This document shows, in pieces, positions 34,113 to 48,823 of a DNA stretch of 64,000 nt. The notes below the pieces were generated by a model, which was not told where the DNA came from, did no database searches, and saw nothing but the letters and a program-made list of their open reading frames with translations. A program made the translations under genes and the position numbers. Each line of letters starts with the position of its first letter. Position 1 is the stretch's first letter. The DNA comes from Marinicella sediminis (lineage in GTDB: Bacteria; Pseudomonadota; Gammaproteobacteria; Xanthomonadales; Marinicellaceae), in assembly GCF_002000055.1 (NCBI RefSeq), contig NZ_MVBD01000002.1:124001-188000 (forward strand), written 5' to 3'.

Positions 34113-36299
34113 TTAAGGGTTGTGGGCTTCGGCCCTGGCCTGACGCAGTTTCTGATAACTTTCGATCAGCCTCAGGTGTTTATCAATACCCTCCAGTTGC
34201 ATGTTGGTTTTGAACAAGCCATGAAAGCGCAACTCACCGTGCACATACCGAATCACCTCATCTGTGGTTTGCTTACCAAACATCCGGCCAAAATTCACCT
34301 TGAAATCAGCCAACTCCAGGGCATCGTCCAGTTTAACTTCCAGCACGGCCTGCACGGCCTGATAGAACAGGTTGCGTTCCACGGTGTTGTCATTGTATTG
34401 TAAGAATGCCTGCACCAGGTCCAGGGCTTCTTCGGGGTTACCCAATGCCAGACAAAGCATGATTTTCAGCTCCAGTATGGTCAATTGTCCCCACACTGTA
34501 TTTTCATCAAACTCGACACCGATCAGCGTTCTTATGTCGGTATAGTTATCCAGTTGACTGTCCTCCAGCCGTTCCAGTAAAGCGGTCAATGCCTGATCGT
34601 CCAAATCATGAATGTGTAGGATGTCTTCGCGGTAATCCAGGGCTTTATTGGTGTTATCCCAGATCAGGTCTTCAACCAAATAAACTTCGGAATAATCAGG
34701 CACCAGAATCCGGCAGGCAGAGGTTCCCAGAACATCAAAATGAGCCACATAGACTTCTTTACCCAATTTTCGCAGGATGCCAAATAACATCGTTGCTTCG
34801 GCTTCATTGGTTCCTGAGTAGTCCCATTCACAAAATTCAAAGTCAGCTTTGGCACTGAAAAAGCGCCAGGAAATCACCCCGGTTGAATCAATGAAATGCT
34901 CCACAAAGTTTTCTGGCTCAGATACCGCCAATGAATTAAAGGTCGGCTGTGGCACATCGTTCAGTCCCTCAAAGCTACGCCCCTGTAAAAGTTCAGTTAA
35001 ACTGCGCTCCAGGGCCACTTCCAGACTGGGGTGGGCGCCAAAAGAAGCAAACACGCCGCCGGTTTTGGGGTTCATCAGGGTCACGCACATCACTGGAAAC
35101 CGACCACCCAGTGAAGCGTCCTTGACCAGCACCGGAAAACCCTGGGCCTGAAGCGCTTCAATACCCGCTACAATGCCCGGATATTGATTCAGCACGTCCT
35201 GTGGTACATCAGGTAATACCAGCTCCTGTTCTATGATTTGTTTTTTAACCGCCCGCTCAAAAATTTCAGACAGACACTGCACTTCTGCTTCCGCCACATT
35301 ATTACCAGAACTCATGCCGTTACTGAGGAACAGGTTTTCGATCAGATTGGAAGGAAAATAAACCGTTGCACCGTCAGATTGCCGTACATATGGAATGCAA
35401 CATATACCCCGTTCGCGATTGCCTGAATTGGTATCAATCAGATGAGAACCACGTAATTCACCATCCGGATTGTAGATGGCCAGACAGTGGGCATCAAGGA
35501 TCTCCACTGGTATGGCATCATCCGGTCCAGGTTTGAACCATCGCTCATTTGGATAATGAACAAATTCACTGTTGGCAATGTGCTCCCCAAAATACTGATC
35601 GTTATAAAAAAAATTACAATTCAACCGTTCAATGAATTCACCCAGTGCAGAACACAATGCACTTTCACGGGAAGGCCCTTTGCCATTGGTAAAACACAAC
35701 GGTGAGGCGGCATCACGGATATTCAATGACCACACATTGGGTACCAGATTGCGCCAGGAAGTAACCTCAATTTTCATACCCAACTGTTGCAGGATGCCGG
35801 TCATGTTTCTGATGGTTTGTTCCAAAGGCAAGTCTTTTCCCTGAATAAATGTGCGTTCAGTGGCATCGATGTCTGCCATCAGCAGCGCCTGGGCGTCCTC
35901 GTCAATGTTTTCTACGACCTCAACCTTGAATTCAGGACCGGTTTGCACCACCTTTTTCACGGTGCAGCGATCGATTGAACGCAAAATACCCGCGCGGTCT
36001 TTTTCTGCCATGTCATCTGGCAGTTCCACCTGAATCTGAAAAATCTGGTTGTAGCGATTTTCCGGATCAACGATGTTATTTTGCGACAAGCGGATGTTGT
36101 CCGTGGGGATATCGCGGGCATTGCAATACACCCTTACAAAATACGCTGCACACAAGGCCGATGATGCCAAAAAATAATCAAAAGGACTGGGCGCTGACCC
36201 ATCTCCTTTGTAGCGTATCGGCTGATCAGTGATGACTTTGAAATCGTCAAACAAGGCCTCTAATCTGAGGTTGTCGAGAAAATTAACTTTGATTTCCAT
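34113..36299 (-). CDS. ycaO: OsmC-YcaO domain fusion protein
   Basis: A 728-residue protein fusing an N-terminal OsmC-like domain (about residues 1-135) to a YcaO domain (about 195-570) and a C-terminal helical repeat region. The OsmC part has YKGDGSAPSPFDYFLASSALCAAYFV; the conserved second Cys position is not obvious in the rest of the domain. The YcaO part shows ATP-binding signatures: SRESALCSALGEFIERLNCNFF and NNVAEAEVQCLSEIFERAVKK. YcaO proteins activate amide backbones with ATP, and E. coli YcaO is linked to RimO-dependent modification of ribosomal protein S12. The ATG at 36299 fits the OsmC N-terminus; an in-frame ATG at 36395 adds an unrelated stretch. No peptide precursor gene is adjacent. 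Confidence 0.9.
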   Translation of the reverse strand: MEIKVNFLDNLRLEALFDDFKVITDQPIRYKGDGSAPSPFDYFLASSALCAAYFVRVYCNARDIPTDNIRLSQNNIVDPENRYNQIFQIQVELPDDMAEKDRAGILRSIDRCTVKKVVQTGPEFKVEVVENIDEDAQALLMADIDATERTFIQGKDLPLEQTIRNMTGILQQLGMKIEVTSWRNLVPNVWSLNIRDAASPLCFTNGKGPSRESALCSALGEFIERLNCNFFYNDQYFGEHIANSEFVHYPNERWFKPGPDDAIPVEILDAHCLAIYNPDGELRGSHLIDTNSGNRERGICCIPYVRQSDGATVYFPSNLIENLFLSNGMSSGNNVAEAEVQCLSEIFERAVKKQIIEQELVLPDVPQDVLNQYPGIVAGIEALQAQGFPVLVKDASLGGRFPVMCVTLMNPKTGGVFASFGAHPSLEVALERSLTELLQGRSFEGLNDVPQPTFNSLAVSEPENFVEHFIDSTGVISWRFFSAKADFEFCEWDYSGTNEAEATMLFGILRKLGKEVYVAHFDVLGTSACRILVPDYSEVYLVEDLIWDNTNKALDYREDILHIHDLDDQALTALLERLEDSQLDNYTDIRTLIGVEFDENTVWGQLTILELKIMLCLALGNPEEALDLVQAFLQYNDNTVERNLFYQAVQAVLEVKLDDALELADFKVNFGRMFGKQTTDEVIRYVHGELRFHGLFKTNMQLEGIDKHLRLIESYQKLRQARAEAHNP

Positions 36300-36602
36300 A
36301 AGGTGCGGTGTGAAGTAGTAAATTGAGTTGTGTTGCTGATTATCGGTGTTTTTGACAGCTGAGTGTTGATATTTTATGACAAATAGCGATGACAAGTCAG
36401 CCTGATCGCTGGCGGCATTTGAGCACTGAGATATTTGTCATCAACCATACCCCTTATTTACAGATAGATTGCCAGACAACCTGATCTGACTGTACCTATT
36501 TTAATAATACCTTTGTATGCATTGGACAAATTGTTATATACATGATCAGCCATACATACTATCATTATATAAAACAATACAAACACAACCGAGGGGAATT
36601 TC
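36300..36602. other. Divergent intergenic region, AT-rich
   Basis: This 303-base gap separates the divergent ycaO-like gene and the large secreted protein gene. It is AT-rich, with several TATA-like stretches (36534-36541, 36566-36573) but no promoter I would assign. GAGGGG just before the ATG at 36603 is a good ribosome site. I see no RNA gene or terminator in it. Confidence 0.5.
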
Positions 36603-39600
36603 ATGAATCATTCTGTCAGGATTTTGATGGGCATTGCACTGCTCGCCCAAAATATTTTTAACCCACTGTACGCCAATGAAACCCCACCTGATTTCACTGA
36701 TGTTGAAGACATACTGTTGGGCCAGCGACATTTGCTGCGCAATGATGACCTGGTGATTGCCCTGGATAAAGGTACCCAGTCATCTGGCAGTGTGTTCAAC
36801 CAGGTCACTTTAGAGACCAATCTGTTACACATATCCAAACAATCCAGCCAAACCATCATAACACCCAAATGTGCGCTGGCCAGACCTGGAAGCCTGTCTC
36901 TCTCCGTGCCGATCAACAATGTCATGCACACCCGGGTTGGACGGGTATTTGAACTTGACCGGGATGTTTCGGTGACCCTGGCACCAGCCAGTCAAAACGG
37001 TCAGTTTGGTTGTGAAGGTCCATTGGCTTTGTATGTCAACGATCACCAGAATGCTGACAACAACACCAGGACTGAAGTCGATAACTCAAGTCCCATGTGG
37101 ACCCAGATGCTGTTGGCTGATTTTGACCTGGATGGCTATGCTGACGTATTCCAGAACCATGGCTATGGTTACGCGATTCACACCGCTGTGGACACCAGTG
37201 ACCCCACTCAAGGGCTGAAAAGAACCCAATTCCAGGGCATCCCAGATTCAATGGTAGCCACCACCACGCCTCCTGTGGCCGGTGATTTTAATGGTGACGG
37301 GGCGGTTGACATAGCCTGGCTGGCAAGTCAGGCCAAAGATCAGGCCGGTTTATCAATTTATGTGATCTCTGTGTGCCCACGGCAAGGCATGAAAATCAAT
37401 GGTGTTACTTGTCAGCGGCCTTTTCAGACCATTCCCAAGGTGTCCACTGAATTTGCCGCCCATTCCATCACAACCGATGCTCAATTGGAGTGGCCCAACA
37501 GCTTATGTTCCGGTTGTGGCAACTCAGTGAATAAATTCTGGTTGGCCAGTGGTAATCTTGATGGCAGATTCACTTCCACTGAAGGGGCTCAAACCGATGA
37601 GCTGGTTTTTGCCCGGGTCAATCAACAACAGCTTGAGATACACGCTTATCGATTGGGCAACGACCTCAAACCATTAGGTAAAGCCAAAAAAACCATCATT
37701 AAGGGCATGAATGTTTCGAAGTTTTTGCTCACCAGTGGGCCAATTAACCAATTCAGTGCCACTGATCAATTGGCGCTGGTGACATCCAGTGACACTGTTC
37801 TGGATAAAACCACCCTGGCAGTGGTTCATTTTGAAGCAGATTTAACGGCCAAATGGTACAGTTATGAGGTCAGTCAAAAAGCCTTTAACAGCACAGGTCG
37901 CACCCGGGCATTTCCATTTGCCACAGGCATCACAATCGGTCGATTTAATCCTCCACAGTCAGGGAACTCGAGGGATTTCAACCATCAGATTGCCGTGCTG
38001 TACAACACCGTAGATACGGTTTCTATGGATTCCAAATACAAAACCATGCTGCATATTTATACCGTGGGTGATAACGCCGATCCGGTTCCGGCTCTGAAAT
38101 CAGAACATGTGGTGGCCAATCAACAGTTTAACACCCCACATAATTTTCAGATGGTGGCACCCTTGCAGGTAGGCGATCTACGAGGGCGTTCATTGCTGCT
38201 GGGTGAGCCGGACACCTTTCAGGTGGAGAGTCATATTCAGCCCCATGTCATTCTTGGCAGCCCACCTCAGCATGTTGATTACATCACCCCATCACGCGCT
38301 GACCAACCCAAAGTCTTTAACTTCAGCGCAATCAAAAAAGATTTCCATTCCACCTATGCAGTACAGGCATCGCAGGAAAATCAGTCCAGCAACAAGTCCA
38401 CCACAAGTTCAGGTTGGGCCTTGAAAGAATCAGCCAGTTTAAAAGGCAAGGCCACCATTGGACCAGTGGAAGTCTCAGGTGAATTGAGACAATCTTTGGA
38501 TGTGGCTGAGAAGAATACGGTGAGCGAATCCTTTGATACCTTCCAAAGTAAATCCTTTGATGCGTCCACCACCACGGGTTATGGTGACCAAGTTTGGTAT
38601 TCCAGCCGGCGGATGAATGTGTTTATTTATCCTGTACTGGGAAAATACCAGTGTCCACAGAACAAAAAAACCTGTTCTGACGATGAGAAGCAACCCATGA
38701 CAGTGGTGTTCTCAGGCCCTGACAACATCCGTTCCAACATCAGTGCCACCGGGCGCAATCTGGAATGGTACCAACCTGTACATGTGCCAGGACAGTTATT
38801 CACCTACCCCTGGAATGAACAACAGCTGTTATTGCAAAACCCGGACCTGCAGTCATTGGGTCAAACCGCTACCGGGGCTTTTTTCACTGATGACTCAACC
38901 ACCACACGCAAGGTCAACTGGAAAGGCAGTTCAGGCAGTCAGAAGAGTGTGGGTTTCAACAGCTCATGGGCTTTGGGGGGTGGGGTTTCAGTGGCCGTAG
39001 GCACACCAGAAGAAACTTATAAAAAAGCTGGCGGGGTCAAAGGAGAAGTCAATTTTGACATGTCCTACAGCAACGGTTTGGAAACACTCAACACCGACAC
39101 CAGTAAAATAGGCACCTCAACCGGCGTGGCCATCAAAAAACCCGGTAGTTTTCCCAATCCCAGTTACTACCAGTACCTGTTGGAACCATTTATATTTGGC
39201 AGTGAAGATCAACTTCAACGTTCTGAGAACACCAAACCAGATGCCGACATATTGACCAGAGGGCCATTACAAACTGCCTTTGCAGCTGACCCGACCGATC
39301 CGGGCAGTGGCAGCTGGTGGTCCACAAGTCCTTACAAACAACACATTGATGTGGGCTTCGGATTTCCTGCCAGATGGGAAATCAGTAACAGCAACAGTCA
39401 GGGATTGATGGATAAGGAGACTGCCTGCCTGGGCGGTGAATGTGCCATCATGGATCAACCTGATGCAAATAACCTCTGGAACAGCAGTTTCTATTGGTTG
39501 CGTGGCTTTTACATACAGTCCAATGGCCAGGGCCCGCAAAGAACCGCCGCACATACAGGAGATCAACTGACCTTAAGTGTCCGGGTTTACAACCACAGCC

Positions 39601-40478
39601 TCAAAGACATGGCCAAAGGTGATCGGTTAAAAGTCCGTTTTTATGGCCAGCAATGGGACCCAACAATCAACCAACCCATGGCCGGGGTCAACAGTTTCCT
39701 GATCGGCCAGGATGTCTTTCAAAGTCTGCCCGGGTTTGCCACAGGCGCCGAGCCCAACTGGCGTCTGGCTCATACCCGCTTTGACACCTCACAATGTGGC
39801 TCGTCAGGTTGTGGTGATAAATATTTTGTCTTCTGGGCCATGGTTTGGGCAGAAGACAGTCAACAACAAATCATCAAATCAGAATTACCCGGTCATGGAC
39901 TGAACCAAGCGCTGTCTTCAGAGGCTTTGACAGCTCTGCTGGGTAAAACCAATCCGAGTATGAAAGCCGTTTTTGAAGTCAGCAAACAGGGCGCAATGGA
40001 ATTTTCGCAGGTTAATGACAATGACTATACGTCATTCAGCAACAACCTGGGTTACTTCCATCAGGTGTTTTTCATCCACAACCATGAAACGCCCATGCTG
40101 AAGCGAACTCAGGATACCGTTGATATTCATCGCCACAGCGTTGTCCAGCAACCAGTGATCATAGAACAGCTCACCCTCAGTGAGACACACATCAAAGCGG
40201 GTCAGGAAGTAAACCTGACAGTGAACTTGAAAGCCGGACAACACAGTAATGATGCCATGCAACTGATGGTTTACCAAGTCACAAGTTCAACATCACAGTC
40301 TTCTTTATTGGACCATGAAATGATTGCCCATATCAAATCCAACGATGTTTACCAGATCAGTTTACCGATTCGTCCTCAGGGCTGTGGTCGGCAGCAAATA
40401 AAAGCAGAGCTTGATTTGGGCGAGCCCAACCAGAATGCACAGATAGTGAGCGCAGAGTTTCTCGATATAGAATGCTGA
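36603..40478 (+). CDS. Giant secreted FG-GAP protein with Ser/Thr-rich beta region
   Basis: A 1291-residue exported protein that I cannot assign to a named family. A signal peptide (VRILMGIALLAQNIFNPLYA) is followed by a propeller-like region with FG-GAP/VCBS calcium-loop motifs: LLADFDLDGYADVF (near residue 170) and VAGDFNGDGAVDIAW (near 225). The central part (about 590-850) is rich in Ser, Thr and Gly with alternating polar and apolar residues (ATIGPVEVSGELRQSL; FDASTTTGYGDQVWYSS; GEVNFDMSYSNGLETL), suggesting long amphipathic beta hairpins. The last 300 residues look like Ig or jelly-roll domains (LTLSVRVYNHS; LTLSETHIKAGQEVNLTVNL), with paired Cys (CGSSGCG). The start is supported by GAGGGG. 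It seems to be transcribed alone. Confidence 0.85.
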   Translation: MNHSVRILMGIALLAQNIFNPLYANETPPDFTDVEDILLGQRHLLRNDDLVIALDKGTQSSGSVFNQVTLETNLLHISKQSSQTIITPKCALARPGSLSLSVPINNVMHTRVGRVFELDRDVSVTLAPASQNGQFGCEGPLALYVNDHQNADNNTRTEVDNSSPMWTQMLLADFDLDGYADVFQNHGYGYAIHTAVDTSDPTQGLKRTQFQGIPDSMVATTTPPVAGDFNGDGAVDIAWLASQAKDQAGLSIYVISVCPRQGMKINGVTCQRPFQTIPKVSTEFAAHSITTDAQLEWPNSLCSGCGNSVNKFWLASGNLDGRFTSTEGAQTDELVFARVNQQQLEIHAYRLGNDLKPLGKAKKTIIKGMNVSKFLLTSGPINQFSATDQLALVTSSDTVLDKTTLAVVHFEADLTAKWYSYEVSQKAFNSTGRTRAFPFATGITIGRFNPPQSGNSRDFNHQIAVLYNTVDTVSMDSKYKTMLHIYTVGDNADPVPALKSEHVVANQQFNTPHNFQMVAPLQVGDLRGRSLLLGEPDTFQVESHIQPHVILGSPPQHVDYITPSRADQPKVFNFSAIKKDFHSTYAVQASQENQSSNKSTTSSGWALKESASLKGKATIGPVEVSGELRQSLDVAEKNTVSESFDTFQSKSFDASTTTGYGDQVWYSSRRMNVFIYPVLGKYQCPQNKKTCSDDEKQPMTVVFSGPDNIRSNISATGRNLEWYQPVHVPGQLFTYPWNEQQLLLQNPDLQSLGQTATGAFFTDDSTTTRKVNWKGSSGSQKSVGFNSSWALGGGVSVAVGTPEETYKKAGGVKGEVNFDMSYSNGLETLNTDTSKIGTSTGVAIKKPGSFPNPSYYQYLLEPFIFGSEDQLQRSENTKPDADILTRGPLQTAFAADPTDPGSGSWWSTSPYKQHIDVGFGFPARWEISNSNSQGLMDKETACLGGECAIMDQPDANNLWNSSFYWLRGFYIQSNGQGPQRTAAHTGDQLTLSVRVYNHSLKDMAKGDRLKVRFYGQQWDPTINQPMAGVNSFLIGQDVFQSLPGFATGAEPNWRLAHTRFDTSQCGSSGCGDKYFVFWAMVWAEDSQQQIIKSELPGHGLNQALSSEALTALLGKTNPSMKAVFEVSKQGAMEFSQVNDNDYTSFSNNLGYFHQVFFIHNHETPMLKRTQDTVDIHRHSVVQQPVIIEQLTLSETHIKAGQEVNLTVNLKAGQHSNDAMQLMVYQVTSSTSQSSLLDHEMIAHIKSNDVYQISLPIRPQGCGRQQIKAELDLGEPNQNAQIVSAEFLDIEC

Positions 40479-40797: not shown

Positions 40798-42714
40798 TTG
40801 AATAATAAGTCAATCATGTTCTGGGTCGTTTTGACTTTGGTGGTGCTGGGTATCACACCATTTGTGCTTTCCTGGTATCAAATCAATCAATCCAAACAGG
40901 CCATCGTTGATCAGGCTCAAAAGAATCACCTGATCATATCCCGGGCAACCGCTGATCGAATCGAAACCACCATTCAGCAATACCATGCCTTGGCTGAAGC
41001 GCTGGGTAACCAGCCCAATGTTTATCTCAGGCCTGACTCAACAGAGGCCGCAGAAGCCATCAAAAACAGCCTTTCTTCTCAACCGGATGTTGAAGTCATG
41101 GCGGTGATGCTCAACAAACAAAGTGAACGCACATTGATACAAGTGGCACGCAAAGATGCGGCCAGCCCGGCAAGCACGCAACTACTGCATCACAACACAG
41201 GATATCTGCCTGTGATTGAACACACAAACGGCAACAAATACCTCCACATAGCTGTCCCGACGGCAAGACCCCAGGTTGATTTGGTGATGCTGATAAATAT
41301 TGATTTCAGGCAAATGCTCGACCCCACCATTCTTGGCCAGGCTGCTAACATCAGCTTAGTTAACCAGCAAGGTGACATCCTGGAATTTGCCGGTGAGCAA
41401 CCAGTCAACCTGCCCGAAGAATGGCTCAATTTATTTGCCACAGCCACTGTGATGGGTGGGGCAAACAGGGCATTCCAAAATGATGAACGCATGATTGCAG
41501 CTTTTGCCAAACTAGAGGACCTGCCCTGGTTCATCGTTTCAGAACAACCTGTTCAACTGGCCGAACATTCAGCCACCAAAATGCGGCAAACCGCTTGGCT
41601 GGTTTTTGGAGTTGTGTTGCTGGTGACCTCAGGATTGATCACATTGGCCTACCTCTCCTGGGTAAAACCATTGCGTCAGATCGTTAAAGCCCAAACTTCA
41701 CTTTTAGGCAGCGATACTGACTCAGCCATATGGCGCGATGGCGAAGTGGCAGCGATCGAACACAGCTTTGAAGCATTGACCCGTCACATTATTGACCGAA
41801 ACACCCTGGGTGAGGTTTTTGTTGATCGTTATCAGGTAATCAGCCCCATTGGCAAAGGCGGCATGGGATCAGTATTTCTGGGCTGGGACCCCAGACTGAA
41901 ACGACAAGTGGCACTAAAAACCCTGCCCATTGGAGAAAACAGTGCATTTGACAGTCGCAAAATCATGAGTGAAACCTTGGTTCAGGAAGCCATCACTGCA
42001 GCCAAAATCTCACATCGCAACGTGGTATCCATTTACGATGTGGTCTCGACTGATACAACCGCATTTATAGCCATGGAATACATCAAAGGTGAATCATTAT
42101 TCAGTTTGTTGTCCAGAAAAAAACACCTTAATCTGTCATTAACACTGGCCATTGCAGTGGCCACATTGAGGGGGCTGCATTCTGCGCATAAAATGGGGTT
42201 TGTGCACCGTGATGTAAAACCAGCCAACATCCTGTTGGACGTCAATGGTGACATCAAACTCACAGATTTTGGCACAACTGCCCTGCTCAGTAGCCTGACC
42301 CATGACTCCATCACCGGAACAGCCGCTTACATGGCACCGGAAACCCTCCGTACCGGACAAGTCAGTGAACGCAGTGACCTGTTCGCTGTGGGGGTAGTCA
42401 TTGCTGAATGTTTGTTGGGGGTTAACCCATTCAAAGGAAAGAAACTGTCTCAAACAAGACAAAACATCATCAACAAAAACATTCAATTCCATAAGCAATT
42501 GATTCACAGCGGTTCACCTGAATTATTCAAGGTCATTCAACAACTGCTTAACAAAGACCCTGAAAAGAGACCAGTCAGTGCAGCCGATGCTGCACAACAG
42601 TTGGTCAAGCATATGCCTGGTGACATTCATTGGGATGCCAAATCTGCGGGTGTCATAGTCTTAAAAACTGAGAGCGATCATGAAAGCGATAAAACCCTTA
42701 TTTCCCATCATTAG
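40798..42714 (+). CDS. Transmembrane Ser/Thr protein kinase with periplasmic sensor
   Basis: Membrane receptor kinase of 638 residues. A first helix (about residues 6-28) and a second (about 264-288) bracket a periplasmic domain of about 235 residues that resembles a Cache-type sensor. A HAMP-like linker leads into a complete Hanks kinase domain (about 342-602): glycine loop GKGGMGSV, VALK Lys (about 372), HRDVKPANILLD (about 469), DFGTTAL (about 490) and GTAAYMAPE. All catalytic residues are present, so it should be active. The start is TTG with AAGGCGGGA upstream; ATG at 40816 is an alternative. The last 35 bases overlap the next gene, so the three genes to 45087 form one operon. Confidence 0.93.
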   Translation: MNNKSIMFWVVLTLVVLGITPFVLSWYQINQSKQAIVDQAQKNHLIISRATADRIETTIQQYHALAEALGNQPNVYLRPDSTEAAEAIKNSLSSQPDVEVMAVMLNKQSERTLIQVARKDAASPASTQLLHHNTGYLPVIEHTNGNKYLHIAVPTARPQVDLVMLINIDFRQMLDPTILGQAANISLVNQQGDILEFAGEQPVNLPEEWLNLFATATVMGGANRAFQNDERMIAAFAKLEDLPWFIVSEQPVQLAEHSATKMRQTAWLVFGVVLLVTSGLITLAYLSWVKPLRQIVKAQTSLLGSDTDSAIWRDGEVAAIEHSFEALTRHIIDRNTLGEVFVDRYQVISPIGKGGMGSVFLGWDPRLKRQVALKTLPIGENSAFDSRKIMSETLVQEAITAAKISHRNVVSIYDVVSTDTTAFIAMEYIKGESLFSLLSRKKHLNLSLTLAIAVATLRGLHSAHKMGFVHRDVKPANILLDVNGDIKLTDFGTTALLSSLTHDSITGTAAYMAPETLRTGQVSERSDLFAVGVVIAECLLGVNPFKGKKLSQTRQNIINKNIQFHKQLIHSGSPELFKVIQQLLNKDPEKRPVSAADAAQQLVKHMPGDIHWDAKSAGVIVLKTESDHESDKTLISHH

Positions 42715-43738
42715 TCTGGTGGTCTTTAGCCAGGTGTCACAGGCCCGGGACTGGCCGCAAAGCGTGTCACACAAAACCGGTGACCAATGGTCACTGGATG
42801 GTCAGGTATTTCAACCGTTTAAGCAATACCCACGGGTTAAATCAACCGGTCGGTATGCTTTGCTGCGACTGTCTCCAGATGGCCAGTTAAGCACTGAATG
42901 GGTCAACCTGGAAGCTTCTGATCCCCCCCCGGAAAACATGCAACTGTTGGTTGATGATGTGGGGCCTGACATCATTACCACCTGGGATTCTGTGGTCGCT
43001 GATTCAACAGCCATTGTGATTGGGCCGAATTCGGCTTTAAACATACAGACATCAGATGGAGTGCTAAGTACGGTACAACTGGATGGGCAATCAGTCCCTC
43101 AATCTGACGGCGTATTGAACTTTACCAAACCCATCTCGCACATTAACCTGACCGCAACTGATGCCTTCAACAACATCACACAATGGAATCAATCAGTAAC
43201 CAGTGATTTCCACGCACCGATTATCCACTGGCAGCCCTTGCCTCCTATGGTTAAAATCAAACAGCAATGGGTGGGGAAATCAATAGCTGACATCAAAGTA
43301 TCAGGTACTGATCAACAGGCATTGCAGTGGTCACTGAATGCACAATCCATCGACCTGCCTGAAAATGGTCACCTCAGTGTGCAACCCAATGACATCCTCA
43401 CCGCCACTGATGCACTGGGCAATTCCAGTCAACAAACCATCAACTGGCAAACAGACAACACCCCTCCACAAATTGTCATTAAAACAGCCGCCGGAGAAAG
43501 CACAGCAGAGCGCACCATTCACCTGAGTGTGAATGAATTGATGCAGGTGTATGTTCGTGATGAAGCACTGCAGGTTACAAGGCAAACTTATCAGGGCAAA
43601 AGCAGACACTGGAAACCACTACCCAAAAGCTTCAGATTCACCAGCAAAGGGCGGTACAGAATCAAAGTCAAGGCCAGTGATGAAGCTGGCAATTCGACTG
43701 AACAGACCCTCAACATCAAAGTCAAAAGGAGTCATTGA
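42680..43738 (+). CDS. Secreted Ig/OmpL47-like domain protein of the kinase operon
   Basis: A 352-residue exported protein. The signal peptide is AIKPLFPIISLVVFSQVSQA. The mature part is beta-rich, with at least two Ig-like modules in which DxxxN and TD(N)TPPQI motifs recur (LTATDAFNNITQW; ILTATDALGNSSQ; TDNTPPQIVIK; VKASDEAGNSTEQTLNIKV). This resembles the OmpL47-type and bacterial Ig-like repeats seen in surface proteins. The start lies within the kinase gene (35-base overlap), implying coupled translation. A role as sensor or ligand partner of the kinase is inferred only from context. Confidence 0.82.
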   Translation: MKAIKPLFPIISLVVFSQVSQARDWPQSVSHKTGDQWSLDGQVFQPFKQYPRVKSTGRYALLRLSPDGQLSTEWVNLEASDPPPENMQLLVDDVGPDIITTWDSVVADSTAIVIGPNSALNIQTSDGVLSTVQLDGQSVPQSDGVLNFTKPISHINLTATDAFNNITQWNQSVTSDFHAPIIHWQPLPPMVKIKQQWVGKSIADIKVSGTDQQALQWSLNAQSIDLPENGHLSVQPNDILTATDALGNSSQQTINWQTDNTPPQIVIKTAAGESTAERTIHLSVNELMQVYVRDEALQVTRQTYQGKSRHWKPLPKSFRFTSKGRYRIKVKASDEAGNSTEQTLNIKVKRSH

Positions 43739-43740
43739 TC

Positions 43741-45087
43741 ATGAAAAAATTTAAATGGATGATGCTATTGGCATTTAACACAGCCATGGGTCAGTCAGAA
43801 GTCAAAGACATCACCATCAAACATCAGGTAAAAAGTGGCGAAACCCTGCACAGCATCACCCGCCAATACCTGGGAACTGATTTCCTCTGGCAAGAAAACT
43901 GGAAATTAAACCCGCAAATTGACAACCCCAATTTGTTGACCATCGGTGAAGAGCTGACAATCATCAAAGAACGCATCATACCTGCAGAAAAAGCCCGCAT
44001 CATAGACACTGTCAACAGGGTTGAAAAGAAACCGGTAACCAGTGGCTGGAAGATCACACAACCTGGAGATGAATTGGTTCAGCAGGAAGGTGTCAGAACA
44101 TATGAGCAATCGACTGCACTGTTGTCTTTTAACGATGAGTCTACGTTGAAAGTACTGGAGTTTTCTCAGGTTTTCCTAAAAAACCGCAGCACCACATTAC
44201 GAGGAACCGACTCCGCCACCATTGAAGTGATTAAGGGGGATACCGAGTTAAACTGGGAACCCCTGGCAAAGCAACCCACAGACATCACCATCATGTTGGG
44301 TAGCACCATGTCAAAACCTCAATTGAGTCAGGGTAAAGCCACTGAATTACGGACCGGCTTAACTGCTGACGGTGATTCGGTCATCTCTGTGTACCAGGGC
44401 CAAAGTGCCGTTGAGTCTGCAGGCAATCAAGTTCAAGTTGAACAAGGCATGGGGGTGGCTGTAAAACAAGGAGAGGTGCCTCCACCGCCTCAACGCTTAT
44501 TGCCTGCTCCGGTAATGAATCCTGACAATGCGGGCAGTTATACATATACCAACCCTGTCTTAAGTTGGGAACCAGTGTCAGGTGCGCATGATTACGTGAT
44601 TGAGCTGTGTGCTGATGCCCAATGCCAGGTGGTCATTGATGAAACCAGACAAACCGAAAACAGCTGGCAGGACAAACAACCCCGAACAGCCGTTGATCAC
44701 TATTTCCGGGTTGCAGCCAGATCAGCAGAAAAGCTGGTTGGCTATCGGTCAGAACCGCAAATGCTGCGTTTCTCCACTGACCAGATGGATCACAGCCCAC
44801 CTTTGGTTGCGATCCAATTGTTGGGCCATAAAATAATCGGGGATCAGCAGATCATTATAGGTCCACAAGCCACCTGGCAAATCCACGTCATGGATGAACA
44901 ATCAGGCATCTCAACGATTGAACACCGCTGGAATGATCAAGCCTGGAAGCCATGGTCAGGAGAACCGGTCAGCATGAATGACCTGAACGGGACTTATTGG
45001 ATCAGGGTCAGTGATCAACTGAACAATGAAGCCATCAAATCTTATCACTTTGTTCGTTTATCTGAATCGCCGGATCACCAACGGTAA
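43741..45087 (+). CDS. Secreted LysM-FecR-Fn3-OmpL47-like protein of the kinase operon
   Basis: A 448-residue exported protein. After a short signal segment comes a LysM peptidoglycan-binding domain (about residues 24-72: HQVKSGETLHSITRQYLG, then NLLTIGEELTI). A FecR-type domain follows (about 100-165: GWKITQPGDELVQQEG, TALLSFNDESTLKV, ATIEVIKGDTEL). Next are a fibronectin-III-like module (PVLSWEPVSGAHDYVIELC, about 258-345) and a C-terminal OmpL47-like module (HVMDEQSGISTIEHRWNDQ). AAAGGAG is nine bases before the ATG at 43741; an in-frame TTG at 43735 is too close to it. LysM-FecR proteins are often paired with CHASE2 cyclases or kinases, so it probably senses wall state for the kinase. Confidence 0.88.
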   Translation: MKKFKWMMLLAFNTAMGQSEVKDITIKHQVKSGETLHSITRQYLGTDFLWQENWKLNPQIDNPNLLTIGEELTIIKERIIPAEKARIIDTVNRVEKKPVTSGWKITQPGDELVQQEGVRTYEQSTALLSFNDESTLKVLEFSQVFLKNRSTTLRGTDSATIEVIKGDTELNWEPLAKQPTDITIMLGSTMSKPQLSQGKATELRTGLTADGDSVISVYQGQSAVESAGNQVQVEQGMGVAVKQGEVPPPPQRLLPAPVMNPDNAGSYTYTNPVLSWEPVSGAHDYVIELCADAQCQVVIDETRQTENSWQDKQPRTAVDHYFRVAARSAEKLVGYRSEPQMLRFSTDQMDHSPPLVAIQLLGHKIIGDQQIIIGPQATWQIHVMDEQSGISTIEHRWNDQAWKPWSGEPVSMNDLNGTYWIRVSDQLNNEAIKSYHFVRLSESPDHQR

Positions 45088-47077: not shown

Positions 47078-48823
47078 ATGAAAAACATATTATGGGCCAC
47101 TTTGGCCATCACCAGCTTCAGCCAAAATGCCTTTGCAGAAAAACAAACCATGATCGTGTTTGATGCCTCAGGTTCCATGTGGGGACAAATCAATGGCCAG
47201 GCTAAAATAAGTATGGCGCGTGAAGCCATGAGCGAAATCAGTCAACAATTTACCGCTGATGATCAAGTCGGGCTGATGGTTTATGGCCATCGACAAAAAG
47301 GTGATTGTCAGGACATCGAATTGGTGGTACCCATTGGCTCTGACAATGCCAATGAGATCGTCAATCAGGTCAATCGCATCAAACCCAAAGGGAAAACACC
47401 CATCAGCCGGGCCCTGCAAATGGCCACCGATGCACTGAGAATAACCGAAAACACCGCTGAAGTTGTGCTGATCACAGATGGTCTGGAAACCTGTGACATG
47501 AACCCCTGTGAGGTGGCTGCAGAAGCCGAATCTTTGGGTATCGGTTTCACTGCCCATGTGATTGGCTTTGACCTCACCTCTGAGCAAGCTAAGCAGGTTT
47601 CATGCGTTGCCGACATCACCGGTGGTCGGTATTTACCTGCCAGTGATGCTGCCTCCCTGAATGCTGCATTGAATGCGGTGCTCATCGAAGATGAACCTCA
47701 ACAAATGGCCCCAGAGCTACCCACTGCGACAATTGATCCACCGGTAGCAACACCCGCCATTGGCGCCACCTTTAAAGTCAATTGGACCGGTCCGGCGGGC
47801 GATGAGGACTACATTGATGTGGTCAACCCCGGTGATGAGCGGACCTATGCAGAGCTCAGCTACCAATGGGTCAAAAACGGTTCAAGCGCACAGCTCAAAG
47901 CACCCGGAGAGCCCGGTGAATATGAACTACGTTATATATGGCAAGGACCGGATAACAAACGACACATCCTCACCCGCACCACTTTTGAAGTCGTTGACAG
48001 TGACGTGGTACTGGACGCACCAGCGGCGGTGATGGCTGGTGAAAACTTTATCGTAGACTGGAGGGGTCCCAATGAACAGGGAGATTATGTGGACCTGGTG
48101 AAAGAAGGCAATGACCGCACTTATGGTGAGTTGAGCTATTTTTATACCAAAGTGGGTAGCCCTGGCACCATGACCGCTCCCACTGCGGCTGGCAATTATG
48201 ACATCCGCTATGTGCTGGAAGCTGCTGATGGCCGTCAGGTTTTGCATCGGGTGTCGCTGGAAGTGAAACAACCAGCTGCCAACCTATCTTTTGAGCCGAC
48301 TGCAGAAATTGGTGCTGATTTCACCGTTTACTGGAGCGGTCCGGATAACAAGAACGGCTATGTGGATTTGGTCAAGTCAGGCGATACCCGAACTTATGGT
48401 GAACTCAGTTATTTCTATCTCAAAGACAATCCGGAAAGCGGCACCTTGAAAGCCGCCATTGTACCCGGTACCTATGATGTCAGGCTGATCATTGAAAACG
48501 GCAAAGGTCAACGCTCAGCCATCGCCACGCAAAGCATTGAAATCTTGCCAGTGACCACCCAACTGGAAGCACCAGCCTCAGGCACTGCCGGCAGCCGGAT
48601 CGATGTCAGCTGGCAGGGTCCCGGACGCGCAGGCGATTACATTGATCTGGTCAAACAAGCGGATACCAGGACTTATGGTGAGTTGAGCTATTTCTACACC
48701 AAAGACAATCCCGGTCAAGGCAGCCTCACCCTACCCGATCAACCCGGTACCTACACCATACGCTATGTCATCCAGGGTAAAACCCGCGGTATACTGACCA
48801 CCCGTGACATCGTGGTTGAGTAA
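47078..48823 (+). CDS. Secreted von Willebrand A protein with four C-terminal repeats
   Basis: A 581-residue exported protein. A signal peptide (ILWATLAITSFSQNAFA) precedes a VWA domain (about residues 22-205) with a complete metal-ion site: DASGS (about 29-33), the Thr in GKTPISRAL and the Asp in LITDGLETC. The VWA part has Cys in GDCQDIE, GLETCDMNPCE and QVSCVAD. Four tandem repeats of about 90 residues follow, each with WxGP, a D(Y/F)xDxV core, RTY(G/A)ELSY and a closing GxYxxRY. The metal site implies ligand binding; the repeats look like beta-sandwich modules. GGGGAG precedes the ATG. It is probably monocistronic. Confidence 0.9.
   Translation: MKNILWATLAITSFSQNAFAEKQTMIVFDASGSMWGQINGQAKISMAREAMSEISQQFTADDQVGLMVYGHRQKGDCQDIELVVPIGSDNANEIVNQVNRIKPKGKTPISRALQMATDALRITENTAEVVLITDGLETCDMNPCEVAAEAESLGIGFTAHVIGFDLTSEQAKQVSCVADITGGRYLPASDAASLNAALNAVLIEDEPQQMAPELPTATIDPPVATPAIGATFKVNWTGPAGDEDYIDVVNPGDERTYAELSYQWVKNGSSAQLKAPGEPGEYELRYIWQGPDNKRHILTRTTFEVVDSDVVLDAPAAVMAGENFIVDWRGPNEQGDYVDLVKEGNDRTYGELSYFYTKVGSPGTMTAPTAAGNYDIRYVLEAADGRQVLHRVSLEVKQPAANLSFEPTAEIGADFTVYWSGPDNKNGYVDLVKSGDTRTYGELSYFYLKDNPESGTLKAAIVPGTYDVRLIIENGKGQRSAIATQSIEILPVTTQLEAPASGTAGSRIDVSWQGPGRAGDYIDLVKQADTRTYGELSYFYTKDNPGQGSLTLPDQPGTYTIRYVIQGKTRGILTTRDIVVE
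47725..48820 (+). repeat. Four tandem coding repeats of about 272 bases
   Basis: The units run approximately 47725-48000, 48001-48270, 48271-48546 and 48547-48820. Each encodes WxGP, DxVxxG, RTYxELSY and YxxRY motifs. Units 2 to 4 share near-identical DNA around ACTTATGGTGA, so recent duplication or gene conversion is likely. Confidence 0.85.

Follow-up and report, generated by a model that had tools for sequence, protein, structure and literature searches.

The best-known role of FecR proteins is to signal to sigma factors, and relatives coupled to other kinds of output have also been described. In the BiofilmReg operon of Burkholderia contaminans, as far as the available part of its account describes it, a LysM-FecR protein (COG4254) is encoded with a CHASE2 histidine kinase (PMC5192318). 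In Campylobacterota, again according to the accessible portion of the source, a CHASE2 adenylate cyclase is found with a FecR protein, a phosphodiesterase and a TPR protein (PMC9239204). SMc02177 of Sinorhizobium is likewise described as a FecR-domain protein, and the available part of that account mentions no Ser/Thr kinase trio around it (PMC5498481). Our literature search, which covered few subscription journals, returned the CHASE2 cases and no Ser/Thr kinase trio.

We analysed a stretch of 64,000 nucleotides (the window, in whose coordinates all positions are given) from the 3.99-Mb, 44-contig genome of Marinicella sediminis. Three successive genes in it encode a receptor-type kinase and two proteins with signal-peptide-like starts, referred to below as B and C. 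A sequence-only reading had proposed that here a peptidoglycan-bound FecR protein reports wall or envelope state to a Cache-like receptor kinase; as a whole, that interpretation is partly supported. The features of the locus are as follows.

40798..42714, + strand: kinase gene, receptor-type Ser/Thr kinase of 638 aa (open reading frame with TTG start)
40813..40869, + strand: first membrane helix of the kinase, residues ~6–24 (hydropathy)
40897..41541, + strand: dCache-like sensor region, presumed periplasmic, residues 34–248 (sub-threshold dCache_1 match, profile positions 1–239)
41599..41655, + strand: second membrane helix of the kinase, residues ~268–286 (hydropathy)
41830..42612, + strand: Ser/Thr kinase domain, residues 345–605 (Pkinase, 191.5 bits, 2.4e-56)
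42680..43738, + strand: gene B, tandem Ig-like protein of 352 aa (ATG start; 35-base overlap with the kinase gene)
43469..43726, + strand: last Ig/OmpL47-like domain of B, residues 264–349 (NF047446)
43741..45087, + strand: gene C, LysM-FecR-Fn3-Ig protein of 448 aa (ATG start)
43822..43962, + strand: LysM domain of C, residues 28–74 (Pfam LysM)
44077..44475, + strand: FecR fold of C, residues ~113–245 (predicted structure)
44494..44781, + strand: Fn3-like domain of C, residues 252–347 (fold matches to Fn3 domains)
44803..45054, + strand: Ig/OmpL47-like domain of C, residues 355–438 (OmpL47-type match, hhalign, predicted structure)

The TTG start of the kinase gene lines up with the start of its relative L043 in the alignment. 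The strong Pkinase match and the hydrophobic segments that begin at residues ~6 and 268 bear out the earlier description of a kinase with two membrane helices; a weaker third hydrophobic peak, at residue 527, lies inside the kinase domain. Residues K374, E397, H470, D472, K474, N477 and D490-F491-G492 are invariant in all 13 aligned trio kinases, and the HRD arginine is replaced in one of them (L082). Judged from its sequence, the window kinase has what we take to be the catalytic lysine, the catalytic-loop (HRD) Asp and the DFG motif of active Ser/Thr (Hanks-type) kinases. Near its C terminus, Thr633 (42694–42696) is invariant in all seven aligned family-level kinases and may be a phosphosite or a site where FHA domains dock.

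The assignment of the sensor as Cache-like held in part. The match to Pfam dCache_1 spans the profile and recurs in the kinases of relatives (7/7 at E ≤ 0.1; 8/13 at E ≤ 0.01), but the score of the window sensor (27.8–30 bits) is below Pfam's cut-off of 45. At E ≤ 0.1, the sensor sequence had no match among solved structures, and Pfam listed neither CHASE2 for the trio kinases nor PASTA for the window kinase.

Gene B (42680–43738) starts before the kinase gene ends at 42714, which confirms the 35-base overlap noted previously. Its description as a secreted Ig/OmpL47-like protein also stands: the start of B resembles a signal peptide by eye, its predicted structure is all-beta and Ig-like, and the OmpL47-type family NF047446 matches at 32.6 bits (8.1e-8), below the cut-off of 40. 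The last domain of B resembles the last domain of C (hhalign, 97.1%).

The longest open reading frame of C opens at TTG 43735 (450 aa), and ATG 43741, 2 bases past the stop of B, is preferred as the start by alignment with relatives. The start of C, too, resembles a signal peptide by eye, and both B and C are presumably exported. The four modules assigned to C from its sequence are retained, with scores below the cut-offs in the window protein, recurrence in relatives and predicted folds. LysM (19.8–19.9 bits, just below the cut-off of 20.9) is N-terminal in 8/8 members of the C family at E ≤ 1, and FecR (14.6 bits; cut-off 24) follows it and is present in 7/8 at the same threshold; the OmpL47-type domain scores 19.4 bits against a cut-off of 40. 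The predicted structure of C supports a FecR fold and Fn3/Ig domains, and fold matches to this structure, obtained as the VIA second look within Foldseek's top 1000 chains, back the FecR assignment. In the Fn3-like domain, Cys290 and Cys295 are invariant in 15/15 sequences. Its LysM domain probably keeps C attached to peptidoglycan.

A Pfam FecR search of the genome (E ≤ 0.01) matched only at a sigma-linked locus and not at C. This ruled out C as an ordinary Pfam FecR protein, and the FecR assignment of C therefore draws on profile and fold. The genome's single above-cut-off FecR lies in this sigma-linked locus (L185:2591-6711) beside an ECF-type sigma factor; the locus also encodes an 821-aa protein with no Pfam match at 1e-4.

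The three genes are closely linked wherever C was found. Full-length C is present in 5 of 18 genomes of the genus, with the kinase in the same five, in 8 of 33 genomes of the family and, by profile search of an even sample, in 15 of 398 genomes of the order. A full-length sensor occurs in exactly these 15 genomes (E ≤ 1.1e-97), and none of the 398 has C alone or the full sensor alone, absences that hold at the sensitivity of whole-genome searches scoring only a handful of first-look candidates in each genome. Eight of the 15 genomes supplied the C profile and 13 the sensor profile, and these match by construction; what carries information is that neither turned up alone elsewhere and that the sensor was also detected in G028 and G056, outside the sensor-profile set. 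Nine further matches to the sensor profile had E ≥ 9.8e-8 and all began at profile position 198 or beyond.

The co-occurrence that the sequence-only reading had put forward as a check was thus found: C and the sensor have the same presence and absence across the 398 genomes, and gene order is kept in 15/15, gene B lying between C and the receptor kinase in each. The result that would have spoken against that reading, a trio not conserved among relatives, did not arise. The order kinase-B-C is seen on one contig in 13 of the 15. In G028 and G056 the contigs break inside B, one carrying the end of B with C and the other the kinase with the start of B. With gene starts picked to fit the alignment, the kinase and B genes overlap in 13/13 cases, by 4–74 bases if B of L081 starts at its ATG, and B and C overlap or sit at most 9 bases apart in 13/13. 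In a tree with outside kinases, the trio kinase domains form one group with 95/95 support; the outside rows were seven of this genome's 19 other over-cut-off kinases and one more, several of them on long branches.

The distances obtained for C, for the sensor, for B and for the kinase domain are correlated (r 0.90–0.95), as would also follow from plain shared descent. Flanking genes vary between branches. The four other Marinicella loci have one common flanking set, and the genes that flank the trio in the window were not found at those four. The unit is missing from 13 of the 18 genomes of the genus and is therefore dispensable. A PLSDB plasmid search for C gave no match at E ≤ 1e-10. No sigma-70 promoter-like site was found just upstream of the trio, and promoter and terminator sites in the region are no more frequent than in shuffles. 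Overall, the linkage of the trio is more than chance.

In the samples of the class (369 genomes) and phylum (398), which have some genomes in common, between themselves as well as with the sample of the order, the next-best match after the window C had an E-value of only 8.3e-30. Outside the trio genomes, the C profile found LysM-FecR proteins, FecR-Ig proteins and many LysM-only matches; named relatives of C came from 11 loci by profile and from none by single sequence. We inspected the neighbours at 14 loci, the best 13 of 63 non-window matches, all outside the order, and one, L145, within it. A CHASE2 receptor adjoins nine of these (a histidine kinase at four loci and a GGDEF protein at five, in four cases with EAL), which upholds the suggested kinship with CHASE2-linked LysM-FecR proteins. 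A HAMP histidine kinase adjoins four others (L147, L148, L149 and L150), with dCache_1 listed below the cut-off in two. A receptor-type protein thus stands beside 13 of the 14 inspected relatives of C. At the exception, L146, no receptor was recognised beside the 767-aa FecR-Ig protein, which follows a 1624-aa protein with 15 PKD stretches (L146:562-7751). Judged from these gene neighbourhoods, the common element of the related systems appears to be an apparently exported FecR protein encoded with a receptor of varying sensor and output.

The trio shares with BiofilmReg a LysM-FecR protein with a predicted signal peptide beside a membrane receptor whose sensor is extracytoplasmic (PMC5192318). 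The C profile scored 99.9% against LysM-FecR proteins beside CHASE2 receptors, a comparison that excludes the Burkholderia protein itself. BiofilmReg differs in its CHASE2 sensor and in its output through a histidine kinase and response regulator, and the available part of its account mentions neither a Ser/Thr kinase nor a tandem-Ig partner (PMC5192318). The Campylobacterota cluster, in so far as the accessible portion of the source describes it, likewise combines a FecR-domain protein with a receptor that has a sensory domain, whereas its output is cAMP and its other partners are different (PMC9239204).

Loci L147–L150 resemble the trio in having FecR (listed in three of the four, in one of these three just under the cut-off) and an Ig-like Glucodextran_B domain beside the receptor, but they have histidine kinase output, no listed LysM and no match to the B profile. 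By eye, a response-regulator-like gene follows the HAMP histidine kinase in this recurring pair. FecR/PupR anti-sigma regulators (6ovk; 4m0n, titled putative anti-sigma factor) differ from C, whose predicted model has no membrane-length helix after the signal-peptide-like start. The cytoplasmic anti-sigma part of FecR/PupR has no counterpart in C, which consists of that start, LysM, FecR, Fn3 and Ig, and no sigma-factor domain, as expected of an adjacent FecR/PupR-type sigma gene, was detected in the seven window proteins scanned or at 34113–36395.

PASTA receptor kinases (Stk1/PknB), whose PASTA repeats face the wall, are also membrane Ser/Thr kinases, and NCBIfam PknB_PASTA matches the kinase domain only. 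The trio kinase differs from them in the lack of a PASTA match and in its order, sensor then kinase; its wall contact would go through a separate protein.

We consider, with slightly more credence than doubt, that the three genes form one signalling unit, in which B and/or C engage the kinase sensor. C would be exported and sit on peptidoglycan via LysM, presenting its FecR domain together with the Fn3 and Ig modules, and B would be an exported rod of Ig-like domains. Either or both could engage the dCache-like domain that the kinase would expose in the periplasm, and B and C together would make up the receptor's extracytoplasmic part. Since C looks wall-holding, envelope state may be what the unit senses. 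A change in the cell wall or envelope would shift this engagement and switch the kinase dimer, and the kinase would then phosphorylate itself and, subsequently, cytoplasmic targets. More tentatively, and with doubt prevailing, we suggest a Ser/Thr kinase switched by two secreted co-receptors, a tandem-Ig rod and a wall-bound protein with the type of FecR domain known from sigma-factor signalling, with the wall being read by a separate protein and not by the kinase. The occurrence of relatives of C beside receptors with differing sensors and outputs fits a common input role. Several observations count against the signalling unit as the best explanation: the dCache, FecR, LysM and OmpL47 matches in the window are all below curated cut-offs, the Pfam FecR search of the genome gave no hit at C, and B diverges fast (relatives share 19–34% identity with the window protein), as a strict receptor partner need not. 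The patchy occurrence in the genus, the promoter result and the fact that shared descent would also yield congruent trees weigh on the same side.

Output from such a kinase could possibly pass through FHA proteins, with reset by a PP2C phosphatase, both encoded elsewhere in the genome. The genome has five FHA matches, apparently in four reading frames, and one PP2C_2 phosphatase (E ≤ 0.001), none of them in the window, in agreement with the earlier statement that no FHA or phosphatase partner lies there. In the same genome (G000, 4 Mb), 20 kinase-domain matches are over Pfam's cut-off and 22 have E ≤ 0.001. Upstream of the trio in L058 (1006-4178), at a distance of ~0.8 kb, are an ECF sigma factor gene and its own TPR-kinase gene; L042 (17393-19001) has an ECF sigma factor-Ser/Thr kinase gene pair ~6.5 kb downstream of its trio. 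These sigma-kinase pairs may count against a closed three-gene unit.

The neighbours in the window itself include, upstream, an OsmC-like and YcaO domain fusion (34113–36395) and a 1291-aa protein (36603–40478) with a signal-peptide-like start and weak FG-GAP and BatD-like matches, which had no match beside the trio in seven compared relatives at E ≤ 1e-8. At 47078–48823 there is a VWA-domain protein whose translation, by eye, continues with four similar repeats.

The reverse direction of signalling, with B and C as outputs, is in our judgement unlikely. Here the two would be co-transcribed envelope or surface proteins whose assembly, or an envelope process, is controlled by the kinase, which would sense a small ligand of its own through the dCache-like domain. 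B is built like bacterial adhesins (its first fold matches are SiiE fragments, and its sequence matches include the SiiE entry 2yn3 and a serine-rich adhesin), the kinase gene is the first of the three and runs into B, and dCache domains usually bind small molecules. However, relatives of C adjoin varied receptor-type proteins at all but one of the inspected loci, and R.WY, presumably the core of the amino-acid-binding dCache motif, is missing from 13/13 trio sensors.

It is very improbable that C, anchored in the wall, mainly gives structural help to a secretin or a pilus-like machine that the kinase regulates. That reading arises from the TsaP-like LysM, through which the C profile has its best matches among solved structures, 6ve2_O (LysM domain-containing protein) and 3jc8_Ta (TsaP), and the same genome holds a 405-aa LysM protein, TsaP-like by eye, for which Pfam lists LysM only; yet the body of C is FecR-Fn3-Ig and, inspection of the large flanking open reading frames by eye revealed no gene recognisable as pilus or secretin. 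Least probable is that the trio is merely co-transcribed, with chance and shared descent keeping the genes side by side and no function in common. Any linked genes would give congruent trees, and the unit has a patchy distribution within the genus, but the full sensor and C were not found apart in any of the 398 genomes though the flanking genes differ.

Taken with the CHASE2 cases, the Marinicella trio points to a general role for the FecR fold as a periplasmic adaptor, coupled to histidine kinases, to nucleotide enzymes and, here, to a Ser/Thr kinase. If the signalling unit is as we propose, it would offer a small, testable system for wall reading by receptor kinases that have no wall-binding repeats.
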